Positions 8,571-57,917 of a stretch of DNA of 64,000 nucleotides are shown here, one piece after another. The position numbers and the translations under genes were made by a program. Numbering within the stretch: the first letter of the stretch is position 1; each line of letters opens with the position of its first letter. A model generated the notes under the pieces. The model made no database searches. It worked only from the letters and a program-made list of their open reading frames with translations, and was not told the DNA's origin. Origin of the DNA: Halobacteriovorax sp. HLS. Lineage in GTDB: Bacteria; Bdellovibrionota; Bacteriovoracia; Bacteriovoracales; Bacteriovoracaceae. The stretch lies in NCBI RefSeq assembly GCF_004006665.1, contig NZ_QOCL01000012.1, forward strand, positions 124,001-188,000. The letters are read 5' to 3'.

Positions 8571-9096
8571 ACATATCCATTGTGTACTTTCCAGGAGAGT
8601 ACTCTGCAAATCTCTTTGCTTTGATTTGCTTGTATATCTGTTTTGAGTTTGAAGAGCTAGAGTAAGGATAAATGGCTATGCCACCTCTTGGAGTAAATTC
8701 TCCAATAACTTCTAGAAATTTTGGTTTCATCAATTTTGTGAGGTCATTACAAATCTTTTGAATACAGTCTTCATGGAAGTCTCCGTGATTACGAAAGCTA
8801 AATAGGTAGAGCTTAAGTGACTTCGATTCAACCATCTTTTTGTCAGCAATATAATTTATATAAATTCTGGCAAAATCGGGCTGAGCAGTTTTAGGGCATA
8901 AGCTTGTAAACTCTGTACAAAGGAAAGTTGTCCACGCGTCATTGTTAGGATTCTTATTATCAAAGGCCTCAAGTACCTCAGGAGAGTAAGTATTTGCATA
9001 CTCTGTATGGGTTTCTCCTAGAGAAAAGTTCTTAAGCTCTTTTGCGTCGCGTCCTTTTTTTTGTATAGTCTTTGTATTCTTTAAGCTCTTTGCCAT
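8557..9096 (-). CDS. queF: NADPH-dependent preQ0 reductase QueF
   Basis: 179 residues, short (unimodular) QueF. The start ATG 9096 follows an AGGGGAAG SD; a longer frame upstream runs through the divergent gene and is not used. The signature FTSLCPKTAQPDFARI carries the Cys that attacks the nitrile, and the VESKSLKLYLFSFRNHGDFHE block holds the NADPH-binding ESK(S)xKLY motif with the following His-Glu. QueF reduces preQ0 to preQ1 in queuosine synthesis. Its 3' end overlaps the convergent regulator by 14 bp; other queuosine genes are not in the window. Confidence 0.95.
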   Translation of the reverse strand: MAKSLKNTKTIQKKGRDAKELKNFSLGETHTEYANTYSPEVLEAFDNKNPNNDAWTTFLCTEFTSLCPKTAQPDFARIYINYIADKKMVESKSLKLYLFSFRNHGDFHEDCIQKICNDLTKLMKPKFLEVIGEFTPRGGIAIYPYSSSSNSKQIYKQIKAKRFAEYSPGKYTMDMSKIY

Positions 9097-9163
9097 CTTG
9101 CTTCCCCTTTTTATATAATTCAGGTACATTACCACACTTAAACAGTCAAAAAGAATTGAAAAT

Positions 9164-11608
9164 ATGACAGACATGAAAAATAAGTATGTAGGGCCTAGGG
9201 ATTCACTTGGGCATAGGAAAACTAAGGTTGTTTTTGTACAACTTGGTTCTCCAAAATCACCGAGCACTAAAGATGTGAGAGTTTTTCTCAAGGAGTTCTT
9301 AGCGGACCCTCGAGTAGTTGATATCAACCCACTTCTATGGAAGATAATTCTAAATTGCTTTGTCCTACCGTTTAGGCCTGCGAGATCGGCAAAGCTTTAT
9401 TCACGAATTTGGAATGGAACAAGTTTTCCTTTAATTGATAATACAGTCGCTTTTACAGATAAAGTAGCTACTCACATTAAGTCAGATAAAGTTGAAGTTA
9501 ATCATGCTTTCTTACTTTCTTCTCCTACTGTTGCTGAAGTATGGGATGAATGGGAAAGAGAGTTAGAGACTTCGACAAGCGCTGCGACTGAATTACTTAT
9601 TATTCCTATGTTCCCTCAATATTCTGAAAGTACTATTGCCTCAGGTATGGATGGATTCTTTGCTAATTTAAAGACAAGGGTTCAAATACCTCCTTTTAAA
9701 TTTATGACCAACTTTCATAGATCTAAAGCATTCATTGATAATTCGGTTATTATGATTGATGAATGGTTAAAGTCTTTCAAAAATGCTGGTAACCCAAGTG
9801 ATATCTTAATCATTTCTTTTCATGGTATTCCTAAGAGAAGAGTCATTTATAAGAAAGATATCTATATGCGCCACTGCTATGAAACTTACTTCTTATTAAG
9901 GGAGAAGGTTAAAGAAATTGATAGCTCGAAAGTTATAATTACTTTTCAATCTCGCTTTGGTTCTGAAGAGTGGCTGACTCCTTATACTGAGGATGTAGTA
10001 GAGGAGCTATGCTCTAAGGGGCATAAGAATATTTCTGTCTACTGCCCAAGCTTTGTTGCTGACTGTTTAGAAACAATTGATGAAATTGGAACTGAACTTA
10101 AAGAAACGGCCAATGAATTTGGTGGGGATATTCAATTTATCCCATGTCTTAATGAAGAAGAAAAGTGGTGTGAAGACTTCGCTCACTTTGTAGAAAATCA
10201 ATGTGAAGCTCATGCTGTAGATAAGGCAAGAGACTTTTATTACTTAAAAGAAGAGGACTATCGAGAAATGGAAACACCTACTATGAAATCACCTCCGATG
10301 AGTGATAACGCGAAGAAGTCTTTAAAAATTGTTTTCTTTACACTTTTTTTAGATCTTGTAGGGTTTTCAATTATCTTTCCACTTTTTCCGGCCTTAGCAA
10401 AACACTATATTAGTGTCGATGGAGATAACTTCTTTCTAACTGCTATCTTTAGTGGAATAGAAAATTTAACACTAACTGGTGGAGCAGGGAAGCTCGAGTC
10501 TATTGTCCTTTTTGGAGGGGCCCTTGGAGCTTTATATTCACTACTGCAGTTTGTTGCAGCTCCAATCTGGGGAACAATTTCTGATCGAATAGGAAGAAGA
10601 CCTGTTCTTTTAGTCTCTGTCTTTGGACTGGCCTTAAGTTATTTGATGTGGTTTTTCTCAGGAAGTTTCACAACTCTTATTCTAGCAAGATTTATTGGTG
10701 GAATCATGGGTGGGAATATCTCTACAGCTACGGCCGTTGTAGCAGATGTAACAACTAAGGAGAACCGATCTAAGGGAATGGCGACTATTGGAATCGCATT
10801 CGCGCTCGGATTCATTATTGGACCTGCAATGGGGGGAATAATGTCCATGATTGATTTAACTTCATACTATCCGCAACTGGCTAACTATGGAGTTAATCCA
10901 TTCTCAATGGCCGCGGGCATTGCATTTGTCCTTAGTGCATTTAACTTATATTTTCTTTATAAGAACTTTGATGAATCTCTTCCTGAAGAAAAGAGAGGAA
11001 AGATTCAAACAAGTGAGAGAACATTCAATCCAATAGCATTATTTAAACCCCTTCCTTTCGCTGGAATTAATATAACTAACTTTGGTCACTTCTTCTTTCT
11101 TATGGCATTTTCGGGAATGGAATTTACCTTAACTTTCTTGGCAGTTGAGAGATTAAGCTACTCGTCTATGGACAATGCCTATATGTTCATTTTCTTAGGC
11201 TTCGTAATTGCCTTAGTTCAGGGTGGGTTTGTTAGAAGAAAGGCCGGTCAAATTGGAGAGAAGAAGGTTGCTCTGTTAGGGCTTATTTTACTTATCCCAG
11301 GATTGTTGGCCATTGGTTACGCTTCTTCGACATGGTTACTTTATGTAGGATTATTCTTTCTTGCCACTGGATCAAGTATGGCAATACCTTGTTTAACCAC
11401 ACTGGTTTCTCTGTACACGCCATCTGAGCAGCAAGGACATAGTATTGGAATTTTTAGATCTCTTGGAGCGCTTGCAAGAGTTATCGGACCTATTATTGCT
11501 TCAATAATTTATTGGAAATTTGGCTCAAGTTCGCCATATGTATATGGAAGTGCTTTTTTACTCATTCCAATAGCTATGATTTCGATGTTACCAAAGCCTG
11601 TTAAATAA
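9164..11608 (+). CDS. hemH: Ferrochelatase fused to an MFS transporter
   Basis: One uninterrupted 814-residue frame. Residues 20-345 are ferrochelatase: VVFVQLGSP, FPQYSESTIAS, catalytic H220 in ISFHGIPKR, TFQSRFGSEEWLTPYT (260-275) and CPSFVADCLETIDEIG with E303. Ferrochelatase inserts Fe2+ into protoporphyrin IX. After a ~30-residue linker (355-385), residues 385-812 form a 12-helix major facilitator of the TetA/DHA1 type, with loop motif A in ISDRIGRRP. No stop, frameshift or SD separates the two halves, although Met374 and Met379 could allow a separate start. The fusion suggests the transporter handles a porphyrin, haem or haem precursor. A shared terminator follows. Confidence 0.85.
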   Translation: MTDMKNKYVGPRDSLGHRKTKVVFVQLGSPKSPSTKDVRVFLKEFLADPRVVDINPLLWKIILNCFVLPFRPARSAKLYSRIWNGTSFPLIDNTVAFTDKVATHIKSDKVEVNHAFLLSSPTVAEVWDEWERELETSTSAATELLIIPMFPQYSESTIASGMDGFFANLKTRVQIPPFKFMTNFHRSKAFIDNSVIMIDEWLKSFKNAGNPSDILIISFHGIPKRRVIYKKDIYMRHCYETYFLLREKVKEIDSSKVIITFQSRFGSEEWLTPYTEDVVEELCSKGHKNISVYCPSFVADCLETIDEIGTELKETANEFGGDIQFIPCLNEEEKWCEDFAHFVENQCEAHAVDKARDFYYLKEEDYREMETPTMKSPPMSDNAKKSLKIVFFTLFLDLVGFSIIFPLFPALAKHYISVDGDNFFLTAIFSGIENLTLTGGAGKLESIVLFGGALGALYSLLQFVAAPIWGTISDRIGRRPVLLVSVFGLALSYLMWFFSGSFTTLILARFIGGIMGGNISTATAVVADVTTKENRSKGMATIGIAFALGFIIGPAMGGIMSMIDLTSYYPQLANYGVNPFSMAAGIAFVLSAFNLYFLYKNFDESLPEEKRGKIQTSERTFNPIALFKPLPFAGINITNFGHFFFLMAFSGMEFTLTFLAVERLSYSSMDNAYMFIFLGFVIALVQGGFVRRKAGQIGEKKVALLGLILLIPGLLAIGYASSTWLLYVGLFFLATGSSMAIPCLTTLVSLYTPSEQQGHSIGIFRSLGALARVIGPIIASIIYWKFGSSSPYVYGSAFLLIPIAMISMLPKPVK

Positions 11609-48485: not shown

Positions 48486-51482
48486 TTATGGAATAGTGTC
48501 AGGGTGATTCGCTACTTGTCCCGCACCGTTTGTCATTGTAAAGTTAACTGGTCCAGAAGTCGTAACATTTGTAGTGCAGATGATTTGTGTCTCACTTATT
48601 GTTGTACAAGTATTTATCAAAGACTTATCGTCAGCAATAACCATATTTTCATGAAAATTTGTTCCATGAATAGTTATTGGAGCGGCCGAAGTATTCAAGG
48701 AAGTCACTGATGAAATAGTAGGAGCAGCAAAGACTTGATCTCCATACCATCTAAAAGGGTAAGTTGTATCATTAGTAGTAATCCACTTCATGGTGACAGG
48801 AGTGTCCCCATTAGAATTTGCATTAATATCTGTAGTCATATCAAAGACTATTCCATCAAAGTATTGATTAATGTTTAGAGCAAAGCCATCGGCCCTATCC
48901 AAAGTTGAAGAATCTATATTTATTTCAAATAACCTTGGCTTAAATAGAACTGAGCTACAGCTCCCCGGAGAACTCATAAGTGAGTAAGTCCCTGGATCCG
49001 AATAATAGAAGAGTGAATCACCATCATCCATAAAGAATTCGTTATCAATGGCCGTATAGGAATTGGTTGAATATGTGTGAGGCATAATTGCGTTTTTTCC
49101 ACTGGAAAATAAGAAATTCTCTAGCTCTGCCACAGTGGAAGCACAACCTGATCCGTTAAGGCTAGACCACTTATCCAGTGTAATAATCGCCTTTTTGTGA
49201 AGCATATAGCTTAAGTGTGGCGATAGTCCTGGAATCAATCTATGATCTTGAGGTGCCATCGGCGCCATCTCTTCTGGAAGTGCATAAATCATTTTTTGAA
49301 AACTTAAGTCAGTCATTGTTGAAAGCATGGAAGGTTCATGCGAAGGTGCAGTTGGTGTAGATGCAGAAGATGAAAATGCTCCTGCAAGTGTGTACTTATT
49401 TTGCGTGGCAGTTGGATTTGCTGTCCAGTCTGAAGAAGAAGCTTGAATTACTCCTAATCCACTGAAGTTTTGAGAAGAAACTTCAGTCCATGCTCCACTA
49501 TAAACCTTTCCAAAGTAGCGATCGGCACTATGAGTTCCGTCAGTTACATTATGTACATATCTAGCATGCCATAGTTCGTAATAACTTGTAGAATTGGAAT
49601 TTTTAAATAGTGTCCAAGATCTATTCTTATATTGCTTACTGCTGTCATCTGTATGAACATAGTATTGCGTGAAATCAATTGTTGTCGCATTCGGATCGAA
49701 TGTTTCATAGAAGAGCTCTGTTCTATAATCTTCACCACCATCAATATTTGATGAGCGATAGTATCCAGAGAACTCATTCGAAGAGCCTGGACAATTGAAC
49801 TCATAGATCGCTTCAGGAACACCTTGAAATCTTAGAAGAACTCTCTTTTCAAAAGTATAATTTGCAGGAGATCCGTTATTGTTCATATAGATACTCATAG
49901 GAACCTGAGGCTGGGCGAATTCAATTGTAACTTGCTCAATATCTTTATGGATGAATGTAAATTGTCCATTGTTAGGAATTGATGAACAAGTAGGGTAGCC
50001 CGCAAGACTTATGAGCGCCCCAATATGACCAGCTAGTGCCTCAGCAATTTCTCCAATTTGTCCTGTCTCTCTTCTCTTTATAGGACTTGGATTTTTCCCA
50101 TTACTGATTTGCTTATTTGCGCTTGTTGCAGCTAGGCCGGTATGAGAAAATACTGTTGCCGAAAAAAGGTCTGTGGCAACGAGATAACTGGCTAGCGATT
50201 CAGCTGATAATCTAGAGTTTATCTCAGTGACTAAATGGGCCGAATTTGTTCCTATTGGACCAGGGACTTGATCACAGTAAGTCAGAGTTAGATCCTGAGT
50301 CGTAGGGTTGTAAGTACTGGTCACTGAACAAGGACCAGCCCCTGAACGTGTATTAATAATATTGAAGTTATTATAACCATCTGTATTAGTGGTAGTTTTT
50401 ATTTCATAGATATCATTTGATCCATCATTTGCTTTAAGAGCACCCTTTGTACCAACTTCCCACGGTGCAACGAGATTACTTGTTCCTGCAACATTCCAGT
50501 AAGCGTTGGTAACATTCTCATAGGGAGTGCCTGTATTGGTATTCTCTGTAGGGTCTGGGAAAACTCCTGCCGCCGAGATATTTGGAAGTTTTGGAATAAT
50601 TCCTCCAGCAACTTCAGGATGTCCTAGTGGATTTGTACCAATACCAATATGATTATCTGCTATAAAAAGAGATGTCTGATTTGCTGAAGGTCCAACGAGG
50701 GCGATACTATCTGAGACAATCTTACCTGGCGGTGGGTTAGTCATCCCAAATAAATAAATAGATTCCTCTCTTTCAGGATTACAGTTAAGATCTTCATAAG
50801 CGACGATTGCAAATGGAAAGTTATTTCCTAGGGACTGAAGAGGAAGTTTTATATTGGTAATAAAGTCAGAAGAGGAGATATTTCCATTAACGATACATGC
50901 CGAATAAAGATTAGGAAGATCAATATCTCCGTTGGAATTTAGCCCTTTAAAGACAATACGATAACTTAGTCCTATACCTTGTTCTGTTGGAAGATCACTA
51001 CAAGTTTCTGTATTATCAGAATTAGTGTCAACTTCAACTAAATTTCTACAACCTACTAAACGTAGAGTATTAAATTGATTACCATTCATATGGGTAGAGT
51101 CAGCAAAGCTAGGGTCTAAACAATTATTCTCATTTAAAGATAGATTAACAACTACTTCAGAGCCTGCAATACTTGCAGTTGTTTTACCACATCGATTTGT
51201 TCCCGTAAGAGGGGCCGAGCCTGATCCATCCCATGCAATGGCACCAAAGCTCCATTCTCCTGGTTTAAGATCGACTTCAACTTCTTGAGAGGGGTTTTGA
51301 ACTCCTACTGCGAAGTGCTCTCCAGTAGAACTCTTTCCTACTATATACAAACCACCACCAATTGGGACAGTAGAGGAGATTGCAGAAGAGAATAACTTTA
51401 AAGAAGTGGTAACACCTTTTTTCTTAGCTGAACAAGAGTTAAGTAATGTAAGAATAAAAAGAATAATACCAAAGTTTTTCAA
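48486..51482 (-). CDS. Very large lipoprotein with C-terminal IPT/TIG domain
   Basis: The start is TTG 51482 because GGGGAA lies just upstream and the chain then opens with a lipoprotein signal, LLNSC. An upstream frame to 51620 is possible but gives a Phe-rich tail before the signal. About 998 residues, rich in Ser, Thr, Asn and Gly, as in cell-surface proteins. Residues near the C-terminus (TISSVTSLNTSAAPITIHGTNF... ending in VNFTMTNGAG) form an IPT/TIG immunoglobulin-like fold. Middle parts have no recognised domain. Likely an outer-membrane adhesin or prey-contact protein. Confidence 0.75.
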   Translation of the reverse strand: MKNFGIILFILTLLNSCSAKKKGVTTSLKLFSSAISSTVPIGGGLYIVGKSSTGEHFAVGVQNPSQEVEVDLKPGEWSFGAIAWDGSGSAPLTGTNRCGKTTASIAGSEVVVNLSLNENNCLDPSFADSTHMNGNQFNTLRLVGCRNLVEVDTNSDNTETCSDLPTEQGIGLSYRIVFKGLNSNGDIDLPNLYSACIVNGNISSSDFITNIKLPLQSLGNNFPFAIVAYEDLNCNPEREESIYLFGMTNPPPGKIVSDSIALVGPSANQTSLFIADNHIGIGTNPLGHPEVAGGIIPKLPNISAAGVFPDPTENTNTGTPYENVTNAYWNVAGTSNLVAPWEVGTKGALKANDGSNDIYEIKTTTNTDGYNNFNIINTRSGAGPCSVTSTYNPTTQDLTLTYCDQVPGPIGTNSAHLVTEINSRLSAESLASYLVATDLFSATVFSHTGLAATSANKQISNGKNPSPIKRRETGQIGEIAEALAGHIGALISLAGYPTCSSIPNNGQFTFIHKDIEQVTIEFAQPQVPMSIYMNNNGSPANYTFEKRVLLRFQGVPEAIYEFNCPGSSNEFSGYYRSSNIDGGEDYRTELFYETFDPNATTIDFTQYYVHTDDSSKQYKNRSWTLFKNSNSTSYYELWHARYVHNVTDGTHSADRYFGKVYSGAWTEVSSQNFSGLGVIQASSSDWTANPTATQNKYTLAGAFSSSASTPTAPSHEPSMLSTMTDLSFQKMIYALPEEMAPMAPQDHRLIPGLSPHLSYMLHKKAIITLDKWSSLNGSGCASTVAELENFLFSSGKNAIMPHTYSTNSYTAIDNEFFMDDGDSLFYYSDPGTYSLMSSPGSCSSVLFKPRLFEINIDSSTLDRADGFALNINQYFDGIVFDMTTDINANSNGDTPVTMKWITTNDTTYPFRWYGDQVFAAPTISSVTSLNTSAAPITIHGTNFHENMVIADDKSLINTCTTISETQIICTTNVTTSGPVNFTMTNGAGQVANHPDTIP

Positions 51483-51681
51483 GCTGATTTCCCCAATTAG
51501 TTCTTTTCTTTTATCGGTCATTATAAGGATATACCTTAAATAGAATTCAAAGGAATTTCTCTCTAAGTATTTGAAAATATGAAATCTATTAAAAGAAAGC
51601 TGCCAATGAATTACTATCAATCTCTATAAAATATAGAAGATTTCAAGCTTTAAGGCATTTAGATGGCCAATAGTAATATAT

Positions 51682-53307
51682 CTAAAAGGGACAAGTTTTA
51701 TCTGTTAAGACTATTCTCTGATCGAGATTAGGAAAGTGATCTCTACTATGACCAGTAGAGAGAAAGATATTACTAAATCCTTCTTGTAGTAGTCTCTGGC
51801 AGAAGTCTTCTCCATTGATACTTTCGTCATTTAATTCATGATCAATATAGAAGAAGTCATCTTTATTTAATTTTTCTAAATCAATATCTTGAACTTTTTC
51901 AAAAGATAAGAAGTTTTGGGACAGCTTTTGGGCCGTGATTGACCACGACATTCTTATAAGCTCGTCGTCATCGAGGTGAATGATATTTTTCGAATGAGAA
52001 TTGTTAATAAATGGTAATTCAATAATGACACGAGTTCCTTTATTTAGAGTTGATTCTACTTTTAAAGAACCATTCCAGTTCACGATACTCTCATAAGCTG
52101 ATGCCAGTCCTATTCCATTACCGGCCTGCTTACCAGCTGAGATAGATATCCCTTCATTTATCTTTTCAAGAATCTCTTTATCAATACCAGTCCCATTATC
52201 AGAAATTGTAATATTTAAAATGCCATCATTAAGAGTCAAAGAAACAGATATCTTTGCTGTTAGCTGCTGTGTGGCCTCAATAGCATTATTAAGCAAGTTA
52301 GAAAGAACACGTTTAAACATGATTGGAGAAACTGAAATCTGACCATTTACTCCATTATCTTCTAATGTAATATTGATTTTCTGTGCTGCCATTTTTTCAG
52401 CAATTATTTGCTTTATAGCTGCGATTGGTTCGATTAAAACGATTTCACTCTTTGGTCTACTTTGGTCAAGTAGATCATTGGCAATATTTTCAATTCTCAT
52501 TAGAGAAGAGCTTAAGATGGAGTTAGGTTGTTCATTAGTAAGTGACATCTTTATAGCAGATATAGGTCCTCTAATATCGTGTGAAACTTGCCTCGCAATA
52601 TTGAGTTTCTCTTTGGCAAGCGCCTTAAGTTTATCCGCTTCATTTGATTTCTTAACACCGTCTAAGATATTTTTCATTACTGAGATATAAATCTTTGAAA
52701 GAGTATTATTTTTTACTTTATCTTCAAGCTTGGAATAGTGTTCCTTAATTTCATTAATTGATAGTCCCTCTCTACTCATTATAAAAGCATCACGATTAAT
52801 TTTAATTAATGTAGATGAGATCTTGTAATTAGCGATAACGAAGGTTAAAAAGAGAAATATCGCTAGCGCTATATATAAAGGTAAATTAGTGAGAAATAAA
52901 TTCTTTGAAATAGACAATAAATTCAAGTGAATACTGAAGTTACCAATATTGTGACCATTATTATTTATGTTAAATGATCTGTCATAGAGAAAATTACTCT
53001 CGTAAATATTCTCTCCAATCTGAATTTTGGCAGGAAAAATATTATATTCAGCGGCCGGGCTAAAAATTAGGGTCGCAATATTATTATTCTTAATTGAGTT
53101 TAGTAGTATATTTAGACCAATGATATCATTTATCTCAATTGTCTCTTCTAAGAAATTACTTAAACTACCGGCAGTCTTATAAGCACTTTCGTTTATAAAC
53201 TTCACTTCTTTAACTATCGAGATACCATGAACAAGAATCATCATCGTAAACAAAGTTAGCGCGACATTTCTAAGCGTTAAATGTATTGATTCTAGAATAG
53301 ATTTCAA
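51682..53307 (-). CDS. Hybrid sensor histidine kinase
   Basis: 541 residues. Two membrane helices (about 12-32 and 138-160) enclose a ~105-residue extracytoplasmic sensor. The kinase core has H243 in VSHDIRGPIS, the N box LSNLLNNAIEA, and G boxes ISDNGTGI and GNGIGLASA. The C-terminal ~85 residues (from IIHLDDDELIR) look like a shortened receiver with an Asp in FYIDHEL and a Lys in TDKT, so a non-canonical one. The gene overlaps the peptide-binding lipoprotein gene by 4 bp, so that protein may present a ligand to the sensor domain. No separate response regulator is in the operon. Confidence 0.8.
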   Translation of the reverse strand: MKSILESIHLTLRNVALTLFTMMILVHGISIVKEVKFINESAYKTAGSLSNFLEETIEINDIIGLNILLNSIKNNNIATLIFSPAAEYNIFPAKIQIGENIYESNFLYDRSFNINNNGHNIGNFSIHLNLLSISKNLFLTNLPLYIALAIFLFLTFVIANYKISSTLIKINRDAFIMSREGLSINEIKEHYSKLEDKVKNNTLSKIYISVMKNILDGVKKSNEADKLKALAKEKLNIARQVSHDIRGPISAIKMSLTNEQPNSILSSSLMRIENIANDLLDQSRPKSEIVLIEPIAAIKQIIAEKMAAQKINITLEDNGVNGQISVSPIMFKRVLSNLLNNAIEATQQLTAKISVSLTLNDGILNITISDNGTGIDKEILEKINEGISISAGKQAGNGIGLASAYESIVNWNGSLKVESTLNKGTRVIIELPFINNSHSKNIIHLDDDELIRMSWSITAQKLSQNFLSFEKVQDIDLEKLNKDDFFYIDHELNDESINGEDFCQRLLQEGFSNIFLSTGHSRDHFPNLDQRIVLTDKTCPF

Positions 53308-54677
53308 AGTTCGATACTCCCAACATCAGGATGTTCAAGAAGATCTGATCCAATTGAAAAACGTTTAAGTCTCTTTGGAAAAAAGAACGGTCGTGTTACT
53401 TGCTTAAGTGGGATAGCAAGATGATTTTCCTCTACTTGCACATTCAACTTCTTTACAAGCTTTGCGATATCACTTTTGTTTCCAATATTCATAAGTTCAT
53501 TATAATTATCCATCAGGTAGCTAGTATCAAAATTAAAGAATTTTTGCTCCTGGTTTGCAAAAGCACTAAAGGTTTCTGCTACGGCATTTTGAGTGGAGTC
53601 TAGAAATGGTACAACTAGGTCATAACCAGTCTTTGTTTTCCAGACCATTTCGTTAAGCTCTTGAAATGAAAAGTTCTTTACTTGTACCTTTATTCCAATT
53701 TGTTTACTTAATTCGTCAAAGTACTGTTGAAGTTGTTCTTTTTTATCATGTTTCCAATTTGCAAAAATAAAAGTTTTGTCCAGCTTGGAGCTGTCACAAT
53801 TTTGCTTTGGACTTCCTTGTTCTGATCCAGGGATACCAATTGGTGTAATATACTTCAGTGAGACTTTGTTTTCTTGGTTTTCAAAAAGAATATTTCTAAG
53901 TTTAGAAGTCGAAATACAATTGAAAATCTTTGAGCGGCTTTTATCATCCTCAATATTAAAAATAACAATGGCAGACTTTAGAATCGATACATTAAACATA
54001 TTATAGTTTTCTTTGATACCTTGAGGAATTTGACTTGGTGAGATCCTGTTATAATCTTCTATAGAATCATTTAGTTTTGTCTTATCAAAGCTACTAATGT
54101 CATAGAATTTAATCGTGTTATATGCATTCTTCTTTTCATTCTTTCTAACGAGGTGGACTTGTTGAGGACTGTGGACAAGTACTTTAAAGTCTCCTAATCC
54201 TATTTCAACATTTTCAATATCACTCTTAATTGATGGAGCGTGAAACAGTAGTGTTAATTTATAGAGTAGGTACTTGGCCGAAGTTTTAAAAGTGTAGTTT
54301 AAGCAATTGTCTTTTTCTGTAATTGTATATTCTTGGTCATCTTTTATTGCACCATTTACAGTTTCTTTCAGAGATTTTGTGTCAAAATGGCGTGTCTCGT
54401 TAAATGAGATACTCTCATCAATACAGAACTTTATTTGCTTATAGTCTCTACTTGTACTCCAGGTCTTCAAAATCTTTGAATCTAAATTGCCATTCTTATC
54501 ATAAGAAAAAATAGTTCTATGTGTTTGCTTTAAAACATAGGCACCAATATTACTTAGGGCCATTGCTGGTGTAATTTTAGTCACTCCACCATTAGAAACC
54601 ACATCCCATGTTGTGTCAGAGGATTTCTTTGAGCAAGAGCTTAAGAGTAAAATGATGAAGCAAATTCTTATTAACAT
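53304..54677 (-). CDS. Solute-binding family 5-like lipoprotein
   Basis: 457 residues with lipobox LSSC (C15). The start of the mature domain, ALSNIGAYVLKQTHRTIFSYDKNGNLDSKILKTWSTSRDYKQIKFCI, matches the N-terminal lobe of family-5 (peptide/oligopeptide) binding proteins, and the NWKHDKKEQLQQYFDELSKQIGIKVQVKNFSFQELNEMV block matches the second lobe. No ABC permease genes are nearby. It overlaps the kinase gene by 4 bp and the GNAT-like gene by 7 bp, so it is more likely a periplasmic ligand-binding partner of the sensor kinase than a transporter part. Confidence 0.8.
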   Translation of the reverse strand: MLIRICFIILLLSSCSKKSSDTTWDVVSNGGVTKITPAMALSNIGAYVLKQTHRTIFSYDKNGNLDSKILKTWSTSRDYKQIKFCIDESISFNETRHFDTKSLKETVNGAIKDDQEYTITEKDNCLNYTFKTSAKYLLYKLTLLFHAPSIKSDIENVEIGLGDFKVLVHSPQQVHLVRKNEKKNAYNTIKFYDISSFDKTKLNDSIEDYNRISPSQIPQGIKENYNMFNVSILKSAIVIFNIEDDKSRSKIFNCISTSKLRNILFENQENKVSLKYITPIGIPGSEQGSPKQNCDSSKLDKTFIFANWKHDKKEQLQQYFDELSKQIGIKVQVKNFSFQELNEMVWKTKTGYDLVVPFLDSTQNAVAETFSAFANQEQKFFNFDTSYLMDNYNELMNIGNKSDIAKLVKKLNVQVEENHLAIPLKQVTRPFFFPKRLKRFSIGSDLLEHPDVGSIEL

Positions 54678-55285
54678 ATTATACAGAACCTTTTAAAACC
54701 AATATTTTCTAGAAAGCTCATTGAGGCAATATTTCTATTGTGTACGGCCGCGACACTGGCAGTATTTATTTCTTCTATCTTAGAATAGATTGCATTCTTT
54801 GCCTTTTTTCTGTGTTCTAAATTTGACTTTGAATTTATCCACATCCATGCAATAAGTGTTTTACTTTCATTTTCAATGGCAAACGGTGTTGTTAAAATAA
54901 GACCTATCAATTCGCTTCCAAGATAGAATGAAGTTGACTCGCCATTTTTTAAAATCTGCATACACTCCTCAGTGTAGCGCTCTTTATTAGAAATATCGTA
55001 GCTCATTCTAGTAAAGCCATCATCTAATGACTTCTTTAAATCTTCGGTGCTTGAGTTTCTTCTTTCAAGTTCATTTTCAATAGCTCTATTTTCAGGTGCT
55101 GGCCTAAACTTTCTTTCTAGACCAAACTTAAAGTTTTCTCCAAAGGTAGTGCTAAACTTTTCTCTGTTTTCATCCAAACTATCTAAGTAAATAGTCGATC
55201 TATTGTCCGCAGAGTGATTTCTATAGTCTAGTAGAGCTGTGTCAATCTTTGCTTGCTCAAGTGTACGATAATTAAAATACCTCAT
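54671..55285 (-). CDS. GNAT acetyltransferase-like protein
   Basis: 204 residues. The C-terminal half (110-204) has the GNAT shape: a beta strand plus ELIGLILTTPF, the EHRKKAKNAIYSKIEEI helix, and VHNRNIASMSFLENIGFKRF, the typical N-x-x-S-x-x-F-x-x-x-G-F ending. The N-terminal ~100 residues are charged and unassigned. The classical Q/RxxGxG/A acetyl-CoA loop is not obvious. Overlaps the radical SAM gene by 4 bp, so it probably belongs to the same modification pathway. Confidence 0.7.
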   Translation of the reverse strand: MRYFNYRTLEQAKIDTALLDYRNHSADNRSTIYLDSLDENREKFSTTFGENFKFGLERKFRPAPENRAIENELERRNSSTEDLKKSLDDGFTRMSYDISNKERYTEECMQILKNGESTSFYLGSELIGLILTTPFAIENESKTLIAWMWINSKSNLEHRKKAKNAIYSKIEEINTASVAAVHNRNIASMSFLENIGFKRFCIIC

Positions 55286-56139
55286 GATGACCTCTTGAAA
55301 ATAAATTCACATAGGTTACAGGCACTAGAACAGTCCACAGGGATTTGCGCAGTATCTATCTCTTTGTCTGCTAACATTTCTTTAAAAGTTTTATTTCTTA
55401 ATGTCTTAAAAATATCACTTGATATATAATCATCGAACTCTGTGTTGCAAATATCTTGTGTGACATCATTATAGACAAGGTTTCCGCAGCAGTTAGAGTA
55501 TCCTTTTGCTGGTATATAGGTAAAAGAATCTACATTTGGGCACTTTTCATCTAAGACAGATTCTTCAAACTTAAAATACTTGTAAGTAATATTATTTTCT
55601 TGCGCTCTACCGACTTTAGAAACTTTTTGAAAAATTACCTTAACGCCAAGGTCTTTAATAAGCTCTTGGGCCATTAGAAGGTCCTTTGGTTCAGCGATTG
55701 CCATAGAGATATTAAAGCTCATGCCTTTTGACTCACAGTAATCTCTTATATTCTTAATATAAGAGTACTCAGTCTTTGTTCCGTGAAAAGCATCAAATGA
55801 TACTTGCACAAAGTCTAGTCTATCCACCTTATCAAGAAGAATTCTAGTTTGTTCAATACTACTACCAAACCATCCGTTTGTTGTTATTCCAAACTTTGCT
55901 TCGAGCTTGTTTGGATGTTCTCTAATAAATTGGTTCATATCTTTTAGATAGAGAGTTGGCTCTCCTCCAGTGAATAGAACAAGCTTTGGAGCATGTTCTT
56001 TTATCTGGGTCGTAATATTGGAGATTTCATCATCAGATAGCTTCGATGATACTTGATCAGGACCAGACGAGTTGACGCAGTGTGTGCATGTGTAGTTACA
56101 CTTGTGTCCTAGAATAATATTTAATTCATTCATCTTCAT
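55282..56139 (-). CDS. Radical SAM enzyme, putative peptide-modifying
   Basis: 285 residues. The [4Fe-4S] motif CxxxCxxC is C14, C18 and C21 (GHKCNYTCTHC), with GGEP (58-61) and a VSFDAFHG segment for the barrel. The C-terminal part holds additional Cys clusters (CPNV, NCCGN, DICNT, DCSSACNLC), like SPASM or Twitch domains that bind auxiliary clusters in peptide-maturing enzymes. The gene lies 15 bp after the IAWA-repeat protein, its likely substrate. Such pairs of an upstream small exported or repeat protein and an rSAM gene are typical of modified-peptide pathways. Confidence 0.85.
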   Translation of the reverse strand: MKMNELNIILGHKCNYTCTHCVNSSGPDQVSSKLSDDEISNITTQIKEHAPKLVLFTGGEPTLYLKDMNQFIREHPNKLEAKFGITTNGWFGSSIEQTRILLDKVDRLDFVQVSFDAFHGTKTEYSYIKNIRDYCESKGMSFNISMAIAEPKDLLMAQELIKDLGVKVIFQKVSKVGRAQENNITYKYFKFEESVLDEKCPNVDSFTYIPAKGYSNCCGNLVYNDVTQDICNTEFDDYISSDIFKTLRNKTFKEMLADKEIDTAQIPVDCSSACNLCEFIFKRSS

Positions 56140-56154
56140 CTAGTGATCTCTTTT

Positions 56155-57093
56155 CTAGTTTCTATCTGAGTCGTTAATTACATTGATGAGTGGACCATCT
56201 ATAATATCTCTAATGCGTTCAAGCTCTCTTTCGAGATCTCTTTCAACATCGTCCAAGTAGGTCGATGAATTAGTAGGAACGTTTGTATATTCACTCTCTA
56301 CTGCCCAAGCGATAGCTCTAGACGAGTTTTCTATATTTGCATCAATGGCCCAAGCAATAGCTGTTCTTGAGCTATCAACACTTCTTGCCCATGCAATTGC
56401 ATAAGGGGATAGAGTTATTGAAGGTGGAGCTAACTCCAGTAAATCTTCAAGTGTAGACTCATCACGTCCTTCATATACTTCGATCCAATCCGTTTGTGAG
56501 TTTATTTTATTAAGCCTATTTATTAATTGCTCAAATGATAGAGCTCCGAACTTATCGTCGGCCAAGTTTCTAAGAATAATACTTCTCATGACTTTAGATG
56601 AACTGCTACGGTTGCCTTCTAAGTCTGTTGGAAAGTTTCTTACTATCTCAGTAACAACTTCACCGTTTTCATCTAGTTTACGAACACTTGTTCCCCATGT
56701 AATTGTACCAGTTGCAGCTTCAACTTCTTCTTGCAGTTTCGCCCAAGCGATAACTTCGTGGGATTTTAAAATACCGTCATCTGACAAGACTCTACCAAGG
56801 TAAGGAAATGAAGTATCTCTACCAAAGAAATTCTTTAATCTTAAAACATCTTTATCTTCAAGTGAGTTTACATAGAGAGAAGCATTTACTTTATCGTAAA
56901 GACCTTTGGACTCAAGCGTAGACTTAAGCTCTGCTTTAGCAACTTCTAGTTTAAGTATCTCTCTTAGATCATCAATGACAATTGGACCTTGAGCATCTCT
57001 GATAACATCTAAGACACCATTGGCCTGACAAATGAGACTGCTTCCAAGAGCACTAGATAAGATAACTAATTTACTGATTTGCTTAATATTCAT
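56155..57093 (-). CDS. Exported IAWA-repeat protein, putative rSAM substrate
   Basis: 312 residues with a Sec signal peptide (1-24, ending ICQANG). Four copies of an I-A-W-A motif occur: IAWAK (115-119), AIAWAR (232-237), AIAWAI (245-250) and AIAWAV (260-265). The last three lie 13 and 15 residues apart, each flanked by Ser/Arg before and Ser/Asp/Glu after. Codons for the repeated motif differ between copies, so the protein sequence, not a DNA duplication, is kept. The rest is helical and charged, with an acidic C-terminus. It heads the five-gene operon. An AGGAAGGAT SD precedes the ATG. No family was recognised. Confidence 0.75.
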   Translation of the reverse strand: MNIKQISKLVILSSALGSSLICQANGVLDVIRDAQGPIVIDDLREILKLEVAKAELKSTLESKGLYDKVNASLYVNSLEDKDVLRLKNFFGRDTSFPYLGRVLSDDGILKSHEVIAWAKLQEEVEAATGTITWGTSVRKLDENGEVVTEIVRNFPTDLEGNRSSSSKVMRSIILRNLADDKFGALSFEQLINRLNKINSQTDWIEVYEGRDESTLEDLLELAPPSITLSPYAIAWARSVDSSRTAIAWAIDANIENSSRAIAWAVESEYTNVPTNSSTYLDDVERDLERELERIRDIIDGPLINVINDSDRN

Positions 57094-57117: not shown

Positions 57118-57146
57118 TGAATAGCATTTATTTGAATTGGACTCAA
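57118..57146 (-). promoter_or_regulatory. Promoter of the IAWA-repeat/radical SAM operon
   Basis: On the minus strand, TTGAGT (57146-57141), exact 17-bp spacer, TATTCA (57123-57118). Predicted start about 18 bases before the SD of the 57093 gene. Confidence 0.6.
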
Positions 57147-57166: not shown

Positions 57167-57190
57167 CGAGTGTTAAAAATATAACACTCG
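57167..57190. terminator. Stem-loop downstream of the DUF445 gene
   Basis: 9-bp perfect arms CGAGTGTTA/TAACACTCG with a 6-nt loop. It lies between the DUF445 stop (57213) and the promoter of the radical SAM operon, so it may insulate the two; the minus-strand T content after it is weak. Confidence 0.5.
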
Positions 57191-57212: not shown

Positions 57213-57917
57213 CTACAGGAGGGTAGTGAGAAGACCAATTAAGGCACCAAAGACTCCACCCCAAACAACTAGCCAACCTAGGTGTGATTTGATCATATCT
57301 TGAATGATTTCTTTAACCATTTTTGGAGTAAGCTCGTTTAGTCTTCCGTCAACTAGGCCTTCGACATTTGAGAAGAGATCACTTGAACCTTCTGAGTTCT
57401 TAGTAAGATTCTTGATGAAGTTTTCGTCGTTAATCATATCCGCAATGATCTCTTTAAACTTTAGTTCGAATTGAGGCTTTAGGCCATCAAGAGCACTAGG
57501 ACCGCCAAACATTCCGATCATAGATCCAAAAGGAGATTCCATAATCGCGGCCTTTAGTTTTTCAAAAACTTTATCAAAGTCAATTGTCTCAACGAGAGTA
57601 TCTTCTTCAATTTTTAAAAGATTCGTTGTTGATTCGCTCATAAATTTTTCAAAATTCTCTCTAGTAAAGAATTGATTCATTATGAGAGCTCTGATTCCTG
57701 TTTTAAATTCTTGGAATCTCTCTGTGATAATTCCCGAACCATAGAGTCCTGGAACTTTTTCAAAGAGCATATGAATCGCCAGCCAGTTTGTTATAGCACC
57801 TGAAAATGAGTACAGACCCATGACTTTAATTTGTTCGGAAAAGTATGGAGTAATATAACCAATTACAATTAGAGAAATAGAGATGATATTTGTGAGTAAG
57901 CTCTTATTAATCATCAA
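57213..57917 (-). CDS. DUF445-family membrane protein
   Basis: 234 residues. An N-terminal helix (8-30), then GAITNWLAIHMLFEKVPGLYGSGIITERFQEF, the characteristic DUF445 block, and a C-terminal helix (HLGWLVVWGGVFGALIGLLTTLL). The family (YheB-like) is membrane-bound and of unknown function. Its start overlaps the end of the preceding 207-residue gene by 11 bp, so the two are co-translated. Confidence 0.85.
   Translation of the reverse strand: MMINKSLLTNIISISLIVIGYITPYFSEQIKVMGLYSFSGAITNWLAIHMLFEKVPGLYGSGIITERFQEFKTGIRALIMNQFFTRENFEKFMSESTTNLLKIEEDTLVETIDFDKVFEKLKAAIMESPFGSMIGMFGGPSALDGLKPQFELKFKEIIADMINDENFIKNLTKNSEGSSDLFSNVEGLVDGRLNELTPKMVKEIIQDMIKSHLGWLVVWGGVFGALIGLLTTLL

Follow-up and report, generated by a model that had tools for sequence, protein, structure and literature searches.

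A conserved five-gene operon of Halobacteriovorax sp. HLS, a proposed self-contained signalling cassette for a possibly epimerised peptide

We analysed a 64,000-nucleotide stretch of DNA from Halobacteriovorax sp. HLS (contig NZ_QOCL01000012.1, positions 124,001 to 188,000), referred to here as the window. It carries at 51682-57093 an operon of five minus-strand genes, which combines a putative peptide precursor and a radical S-adenosylmethionine (radical SAM) enzyme with a binding lipoprotein and a sensor kinase. In order, the genes are the following:

56155..57093, minus strand: exported precursor gene, 312 aa, open reading frame (ORF)
55282..56139, minus strand: EpeE/YydG-like radical SAM gene, 285 aa, predicted peptide epimerase
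54671..55285, minus strand: GNAT-like gene, 204 aa, without the canonical acetyl-CoA loop
53304..54677, minus strand: family-5 (oligopeptide/nickel-type) binding lipoprotein gene, 457 aa, putative peptide receptor
51682..53307, minus strand: membrane histidine kinase gene, 541 aa, with a receiver-like C-terminal domain

On re-reading, the five ORFs proved exact, and so did the 15-bp gap and the three overlaps after it (4, 7 and 4 bp), the last one shared by the binding-protein and kinase genes.

This five-gene operon is a conserved unit. The enzyme was present in 8 of 129 sampled genomes of the same family (threshold E <1e-15), and its profile was matched in 21 of 369 sampled genomes of the phylum (E <1e-20). 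The flanks were read and scored with profiles, which gave 23 cassettes from several of the phylum's families, almost all of them with the order precursor, radical SAM enzyme, GNAT-like protein, family-5 binding protein and histidine kinase. A small exported precursor lies upstream of the enzyme in every assessable locus (22/22), the binding protein lies downstream of it in all cassettes with readable downstream sequence (23/23), and the kinase comes next in 15 of 17 loci whose contig reaches far enough; the exceptions, L124 and L125, are near-identical. A gene of its own encodes the GNAT-like protein in 13/23 cassettes; in four loci (L123, L126, L127 and L128) the protein is fused to the radical SAM enzyme, and in L119 (where the contig ends), L124 and L125 it was not observed. 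L120 and L131 have canonical GNATs between the binding protein and the kinase, and in L122 (5149-6552) a PF00144 serine hydrolase stands in place of the GNAT-like gene. The PF00144 family includes D-aminopeptidases, and this hydrolase would be of interest if the peptide carries D-residues. Co-occurrence of the genes, which a first-pass annotation of this DNA had set beforehand as a test, was found in the 23 cassettes. That annotation knew of no described system with this gene set, and none was described in the literature that we searched, most subscription papers lying outside that search. Considering that the same gene set recurs across the phylum, it probably forms a peptide communication system not described before, and not a chance grouping.

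Some loci deserve separate mention. L078 (814-3759) is divergent, with a fused radical SAM-GNAT protein and a weakly matching binding protein on the unusual side of the enzyme, and it was left out of the cassette counts. The weaker radical SAM matches L076 and L077 had no cassette genes in their short flanks. Genome G334 holds five cassette copies or fragments (L119, L122, L127, L130 and L131), and the precursors of L119 and L130 are near-identical, with the same tail. In L124 a transposase-like ORF (9054-9956) comes directly after the binding protein, at the kinase's expected place. The single match of a genome-contig scan with the radical SAM enzyme, L009, was a false positive, the frame being a 960-aa M16-type-peptidase-like protein. 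The search with the enzyme against plasmids gave no match, and its viral matches were weak and partial, as is typical for generic radical SAM proteins.

The radical SAM enzyme of the window has a clear PF04055 domain in Pfam, and in NCBIfam it scores best against TIGR04078, the family of the YydG peptide epimerase (E 1.6e-24), which is matched by all 20 cassette enzymes. The models for WgkB, PapB and sactipeptide maturases also match these enzymes, more weakly than TIGR04078. Among structures in the PDB, the top match of the family profile was EpeE (8ai1, E 2.2e-40) over its full length (profile positions 4-284 of 292); viperin-type structures ranked below it and aligned with the core domain only. 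The CxxxCxxC motif and the C-terminal auxiliary-cluster cysteines are present, C14, C18, C21, C200, C274 and C277 being invariant in 20 sequences and C217 and C218 nearly so, and the cluster cysteines align with those of EpeE. The pair C217-C218 of the window aligns with the CC at chain positions 247-248 of EpeE, which we take to be native residues 222-223 (a 25-residue offset, the native YydG having 319 residues). By this numbering, C218 would be the counterpart of the EpeE donor Cys223. In EpeE, Cys223 is the proposed H-atom donor, and the epimerised residues are Val36 and Ile44 (PMC8326336). The radical SAM identity given in the first-pass annotation was thus borne out, and the generic modification it had proposed gives way to an indication of EpeE/YydG-like epimerisation.

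The precursor of the window begins with a hydrophobic, signal-peptide-like stretch. Such an N-terminal stretch was seen in 20/20 precursors examined, 19 of them with at least one basic residue before it. Within residues about 49-96 of the window precursor lies the leader GLYDKVNASLYVNSLEDKDVLRL, which resembles the precursors of genomes G002, G021, G234 and G334 (0/500 shuffles scored as high) and has weak similarity to several others. Some 100 aa of conserved sequence lie between the leader and the cores, where AIAWA occurs three times. The cores and two core-like motifs are located as follows:

56386..56400, minus strand: AIAWA core 1, residue 232
56347..56361, minus strand: AIAWA core 2, residue 245, with SSRT before it
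56302..56316, minus strand: AIAWA core 3, residue 260, with SSR before it
56740..56754, minus strand: VIAWA, core-like motif, residue 114 (VIAWT in G002)
56692..56706, minus strand: TITWG, core-like motif, residue 130, kept in G002

Any one pentapeptide in three copies was seen in 1/5000 shuffles of this precursor. The three copies of AIAWA use different synonymous codons, so it is the amino-acid sequence that is kept; a degenerate DNA pattern for AIAWA has 5 sites in the 3.84-Mb genome, 3 of them inside the precursor gene. The IAWA repeat reported earlier is therefore real, but as a conserved feature it does not hold, since outside the window it was found in G002 only: what is conserved is the signal peptide and the leader, and the core varies. 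Precursors elsewhere measure 72-124 aa, a leader plus a short tail, and share the leader with divergent short C-terminal cores, such as RAVAATM in three copies (G036), QAVAATIGQ (G021), FSVAPTSGPEK (G028), GAAAVTAY (G234), NDVIPI, SNPFA, QTQFP and QGSII. In the closer members Arg often stands just before the core (SSR-TAIAWAI, SSR-AIAWAV, MR-AVAATM, DR-AVAATM), which suggests that the precursor is cut after Arg in several of them. Peptide pheromone precursors have just this build, an exported protein with a conserved leader and a short divergent core that is at times repeated, and by this analogy the precursors of the window type would be built as pheromone precursors. An argument from a hypervariable tail in the pair G028b/G101 was dropped, the core-like ARAAITT upstream of the tail being identical in both. 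Upstream of the cassette in L118 (3474-5502) there is a second precursor-like exported ORF of 79 aa, followed by ORFs of 375 aa and 219 aa without known identity.

Several cores carry Val or Ile, as in AIAWA of the window, the triple RAVAAT of G036, QAVAATIGQ and SVAPT. The Ile of AIAWA and the Val of AVAAT would be natural candidates for epimerisation. We consider it likely that the cassette makes a radical-SAM-modified exported peptide and, with somewhat less assurance, probable that the modification is an epimerisation.

The GNAT-like assignment failed for the single window protein, which had no match in Pfam, and held for the family profile, whose best PDB match was the N-acetyltransferase 8osp (E 1.5e-5) and which matched PaiA at E 2e-4. 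The Gly-rich acetyl-CoA loop (Q/RxxGxG/A) is missing in most members, with RKKAKN in the window and RKxxH-like sequences in relatives, and acetyl transfer is therefore uncertain; the acylation suggested by the first-pass annotation becomes less likely. The canonical loop was found only in L120 and L131, whose GNATs may be an independent recruitment and gave a weak comparison with the GNAT-like family (probability 13%). A single-sequence AlphaFold model of the window protein had a predicted local distance difference test (pLDDT) score of 45; its fold matches were meaningless and were not used.

For the sensing half, the family-5 assignment of the binding lipoprotein (lipobox LSSC) also stands at the level of the family. 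The window protein alone is below the Pfam cutoff for SBP_bac_5 (PF00496), and its homologues in L120 and L123 exceed it; the family profile matched NikA-like and OppA-like structures (best 5yh5, E 1.8e-8; OppA3, E 2.4e-6). The kinase, announced as a hybrid one, is confirmed as a kinase by HATPase_c (E 7.4e-21) and HisKA (E 0.002) in Pfam; its putative receiver is visible in the C-terminal alignment as conserved D, D, TG and K, and no profile matched it with significance. The cassette peptide is a likely candidate for the ligand of the lipoprotein-kinase pair. Directly upstream of the cassette in L014, L015, L017 and L021 we found response regulators with receiver and AAA+ domains, that of L014 being of the sigma-54 type by Pfam, and sigma-54-like sites scoring at least 9/12 precede the precursor in 5/20 loci, against 0.3 expected. 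In the window genome there were eight candidate response regulators, and none could be picked as cognate to the kinase.

The cassette comes and goes as a block. Within the genus the enzyme is present in 2/5 genomes. In G003, which is without it, the 207-aa gene found on one side of the window cassette directly adjoins the large lipoprotein found on the other, and in G002 the cassette lies about 10 kb from the 207-aa gene; the five genes are therefore gained or lost as one. A DUF445-domain gene at 57213-57917 of the window, overlapping the 207-aa gene, is missing at the G003 site and is thus extra along with the cassette. At 48486-51620 the window encodes a 1044-aa lipoprotein with a TIG domain, and every genus member read (L140-L143) has large lipoproteins of this type close to that same flanking gene. 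Between the DUF445 and precursor genes, at 57167-57190, there is a perfect 9-bp inverted repeat, CGAGTGTTA-TATTTT-TAACACTCG, which is possibly an operator, or the terminator of the upstream gene. The "good promoter" earlier placed at 57118-57146 proved weak: TTGAGT-17-TATTCA fits 7/12 consensus positions and is missing from the list of the promoter scan, which gave no excess of promoter-like sites over shuffles in the upstream region of the operon.

Taking these results together, we lean towards reading the operon as a self-contained peptide signalling cassette, in which an epimerised peptide, once exported and trimmed, would bind to the lipoprotein and be detected by the kinase. Ribosomal synthesis would yield a precursor for export, its leader conserved and its cores short (three AIAWA in the window). 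Before export, the EpeE/YydG-like enzyme would modify residues of the core, most likely Ile (Val in relatives), from L to D, and the GNAT-like protein may assist or cap the peptide. After export, the precursor would be trimmed to at least one short peptide, apparently after Arg in several members, and the family-5 lipoprotein would capture it in the periplasm. The kinase, translated with the lipoprotein, would then read the loaded receptor and pass the signal on within the cell, the probable target in several relatives being a sigma-54-type response regulator encoded just upstream. This agrees with the modified, exported and processed peptide of the first-pass annotation, which stands as the best-supported reading. 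What we observed is the gene set with its order and fusions, the relatedness of enzyme and leader, and the presence or absence of the cassette at one fixed site; epimerisation, trimming, binding and signalling are steps that we infer. More tentatively, and with the odds rather against it, we propose a phylum-wide pheromone system of Gram-negative-type, probably predatory bacteria, where a radical SAM epimerase would put D-residues in short exported pheromones, at times with several copies per precursor as in yeast alpha-factor, and a dedicated oligopeptide-binding lipoprotein would present them to a co-encoded kinase.

Some observations weigh against the signalling cassette. The window enzyme scored 86.9 bits, under the curated equivalog cutoff of 300 bits for TIGR04078. 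L021 has Ser at the putative donor Cys and in L129 the neighbouring Cys is absent, so that not every member need share one activity, and the core ends of some precursors are aromatic instead of Val/Ile. The cassette gene sets include no processing protease and no outer-membrane exit route, and the window operon has neither an adjacent response regulator nor a sigma-54-like site upstream of the precursor. Finally, binding-protein/kinase pairs occur with neither enzyme nor precursor in L053 (with a GNAT remnant), L054, L056 and L057, and the sensor therefore need not depend on the cassette peptide. These pairs may be solo receptors or decayed cassettes; judged by its distribution, the pair is a sensor module that the peptide-making genes appear to have joined. 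A transposase-like ORF similar to that of L124 borders the solo pair of L056 (1-827).

The same circuit could work with another chemistry, the enzyme installing a crosslink (such as a Trp-containing cyclophane or a thioether) or some other change, and no epimer. Trp is a fixed residue of IAWA and ITWG, the WgkB, PapB and sactipeptide maturase models match as well, if more weakly, and sequence cannot fix the reaction; L021 is without the donor Cys. However, EpeE is by far the best match, at full length and with cluster and donor cysteines kept, and the cores of relatives (AVAAT, SVAPT) have neither Trp nor Cys, which makes a different chemistry unlikely. As this alternative overlaps the signalling cassette that we prefer, our confidences are not meant to add up to one.

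We regard it as improbable, to a similar degree, that the product is an epipeptide-like antimicrobial or cannibalism peptide that hits the envelope of competitors, prey or siblings, the lipoprotein and the kinase triggering self-protection. An epimerised antimicrobial is the product of the enzyme's nearest relative, and the epipeptide gene cluster of B. subtilis induces LiaRS (PMC8326336). The patchy presence in the family (8/129 genomes) and the block exchange of the cassette fit a toxin and a signal alike. Nevertheless, no gene for export, immunity or resistance belongs to the cassette, toxin self-protection does not usually come with a dedicated binding protein such as all 23 cassettes have, and many of the C-terminal cores are short, without amphipathic character (SNPFA, QTQFP, QGSII). 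Least probable is an environmental sensor, with the lipoprotein and the kinase sensing outside peptides, for example of prey, and the modified protein acting as an envelope output or accessory and not as the ligand: the solo pairs and the large window precursor (312 aa) with its conserved middle region would suit it, but precursors of 72-124 aa leave no room for a separate function, each assessable cassette has precursor and enzyme right before its sensor genes, and the enzyme-GNAT fusions hold that same position.

Gram-positive bacteria are well known for their peptide pheromones; beyond them, to our knowledge, there are few examples in which precursor, modifying enzyme and receptor are all defined. 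The cassette sets a candidate for each of the three side by side in many species, and the variable cores allow the specificity between partners to be tested directly. Should the host lineage be predatory, as we presume, a signalling cassette would give a handle on the coordination of predators in or between prey, and a D-residue, if true, would help the signal to survive the proteases that predators release. The cassettes also offer a family of uncharacterised EpeE-like enzymes, some of them fused to GNAT-like domains.

By comparison with known systems, the closest is the epipeptide system EpeXEPAB (formerly YydFGHIJ) of B. subtilis. Both share the full-length relation of the enzyme, with its Fe-S and catalytic cysteines, a small ribosomal precursor encoded just before it, core residues Val/Ile and a link to a two-component system. 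In contrast, the cassette precursor has a Sec-type signal peptide, the YydH-type protease and the YydIJ ATP-binding cassette exporter are absent from the five genes and from the cassette gene sets, and a GNAT-like protein, a binding lipoprotein and an own kinase are added; the cassette enzyme is under the family cutoff and the host is not Gram-positive. In LuxPQ (autoinducer-2) and TorT-TorS a periplasmic binding protein feeds a membrane kinase, a pairing which the cassette would share, whereas its own binding protein is of family 5 and has the gene of its likely ligand in one operon with it. Gram-positive pheromones include the enterococcal ones bound by OppA/PrgZ and streptide, which is radical SAM-modified and under SHP/Rgg control. 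The cassette has in common with them a short variable peptide from a conserved exported precursor and an OppA-like lipoprotein binder, and with streptide the radical SAM modification, here a predicted one. It differs in the co-encoded sensor kinase, which takes the place of import to a cytoplasmic regulator, in the predicted D-residue and, in some members, in the several core copies per precursor.

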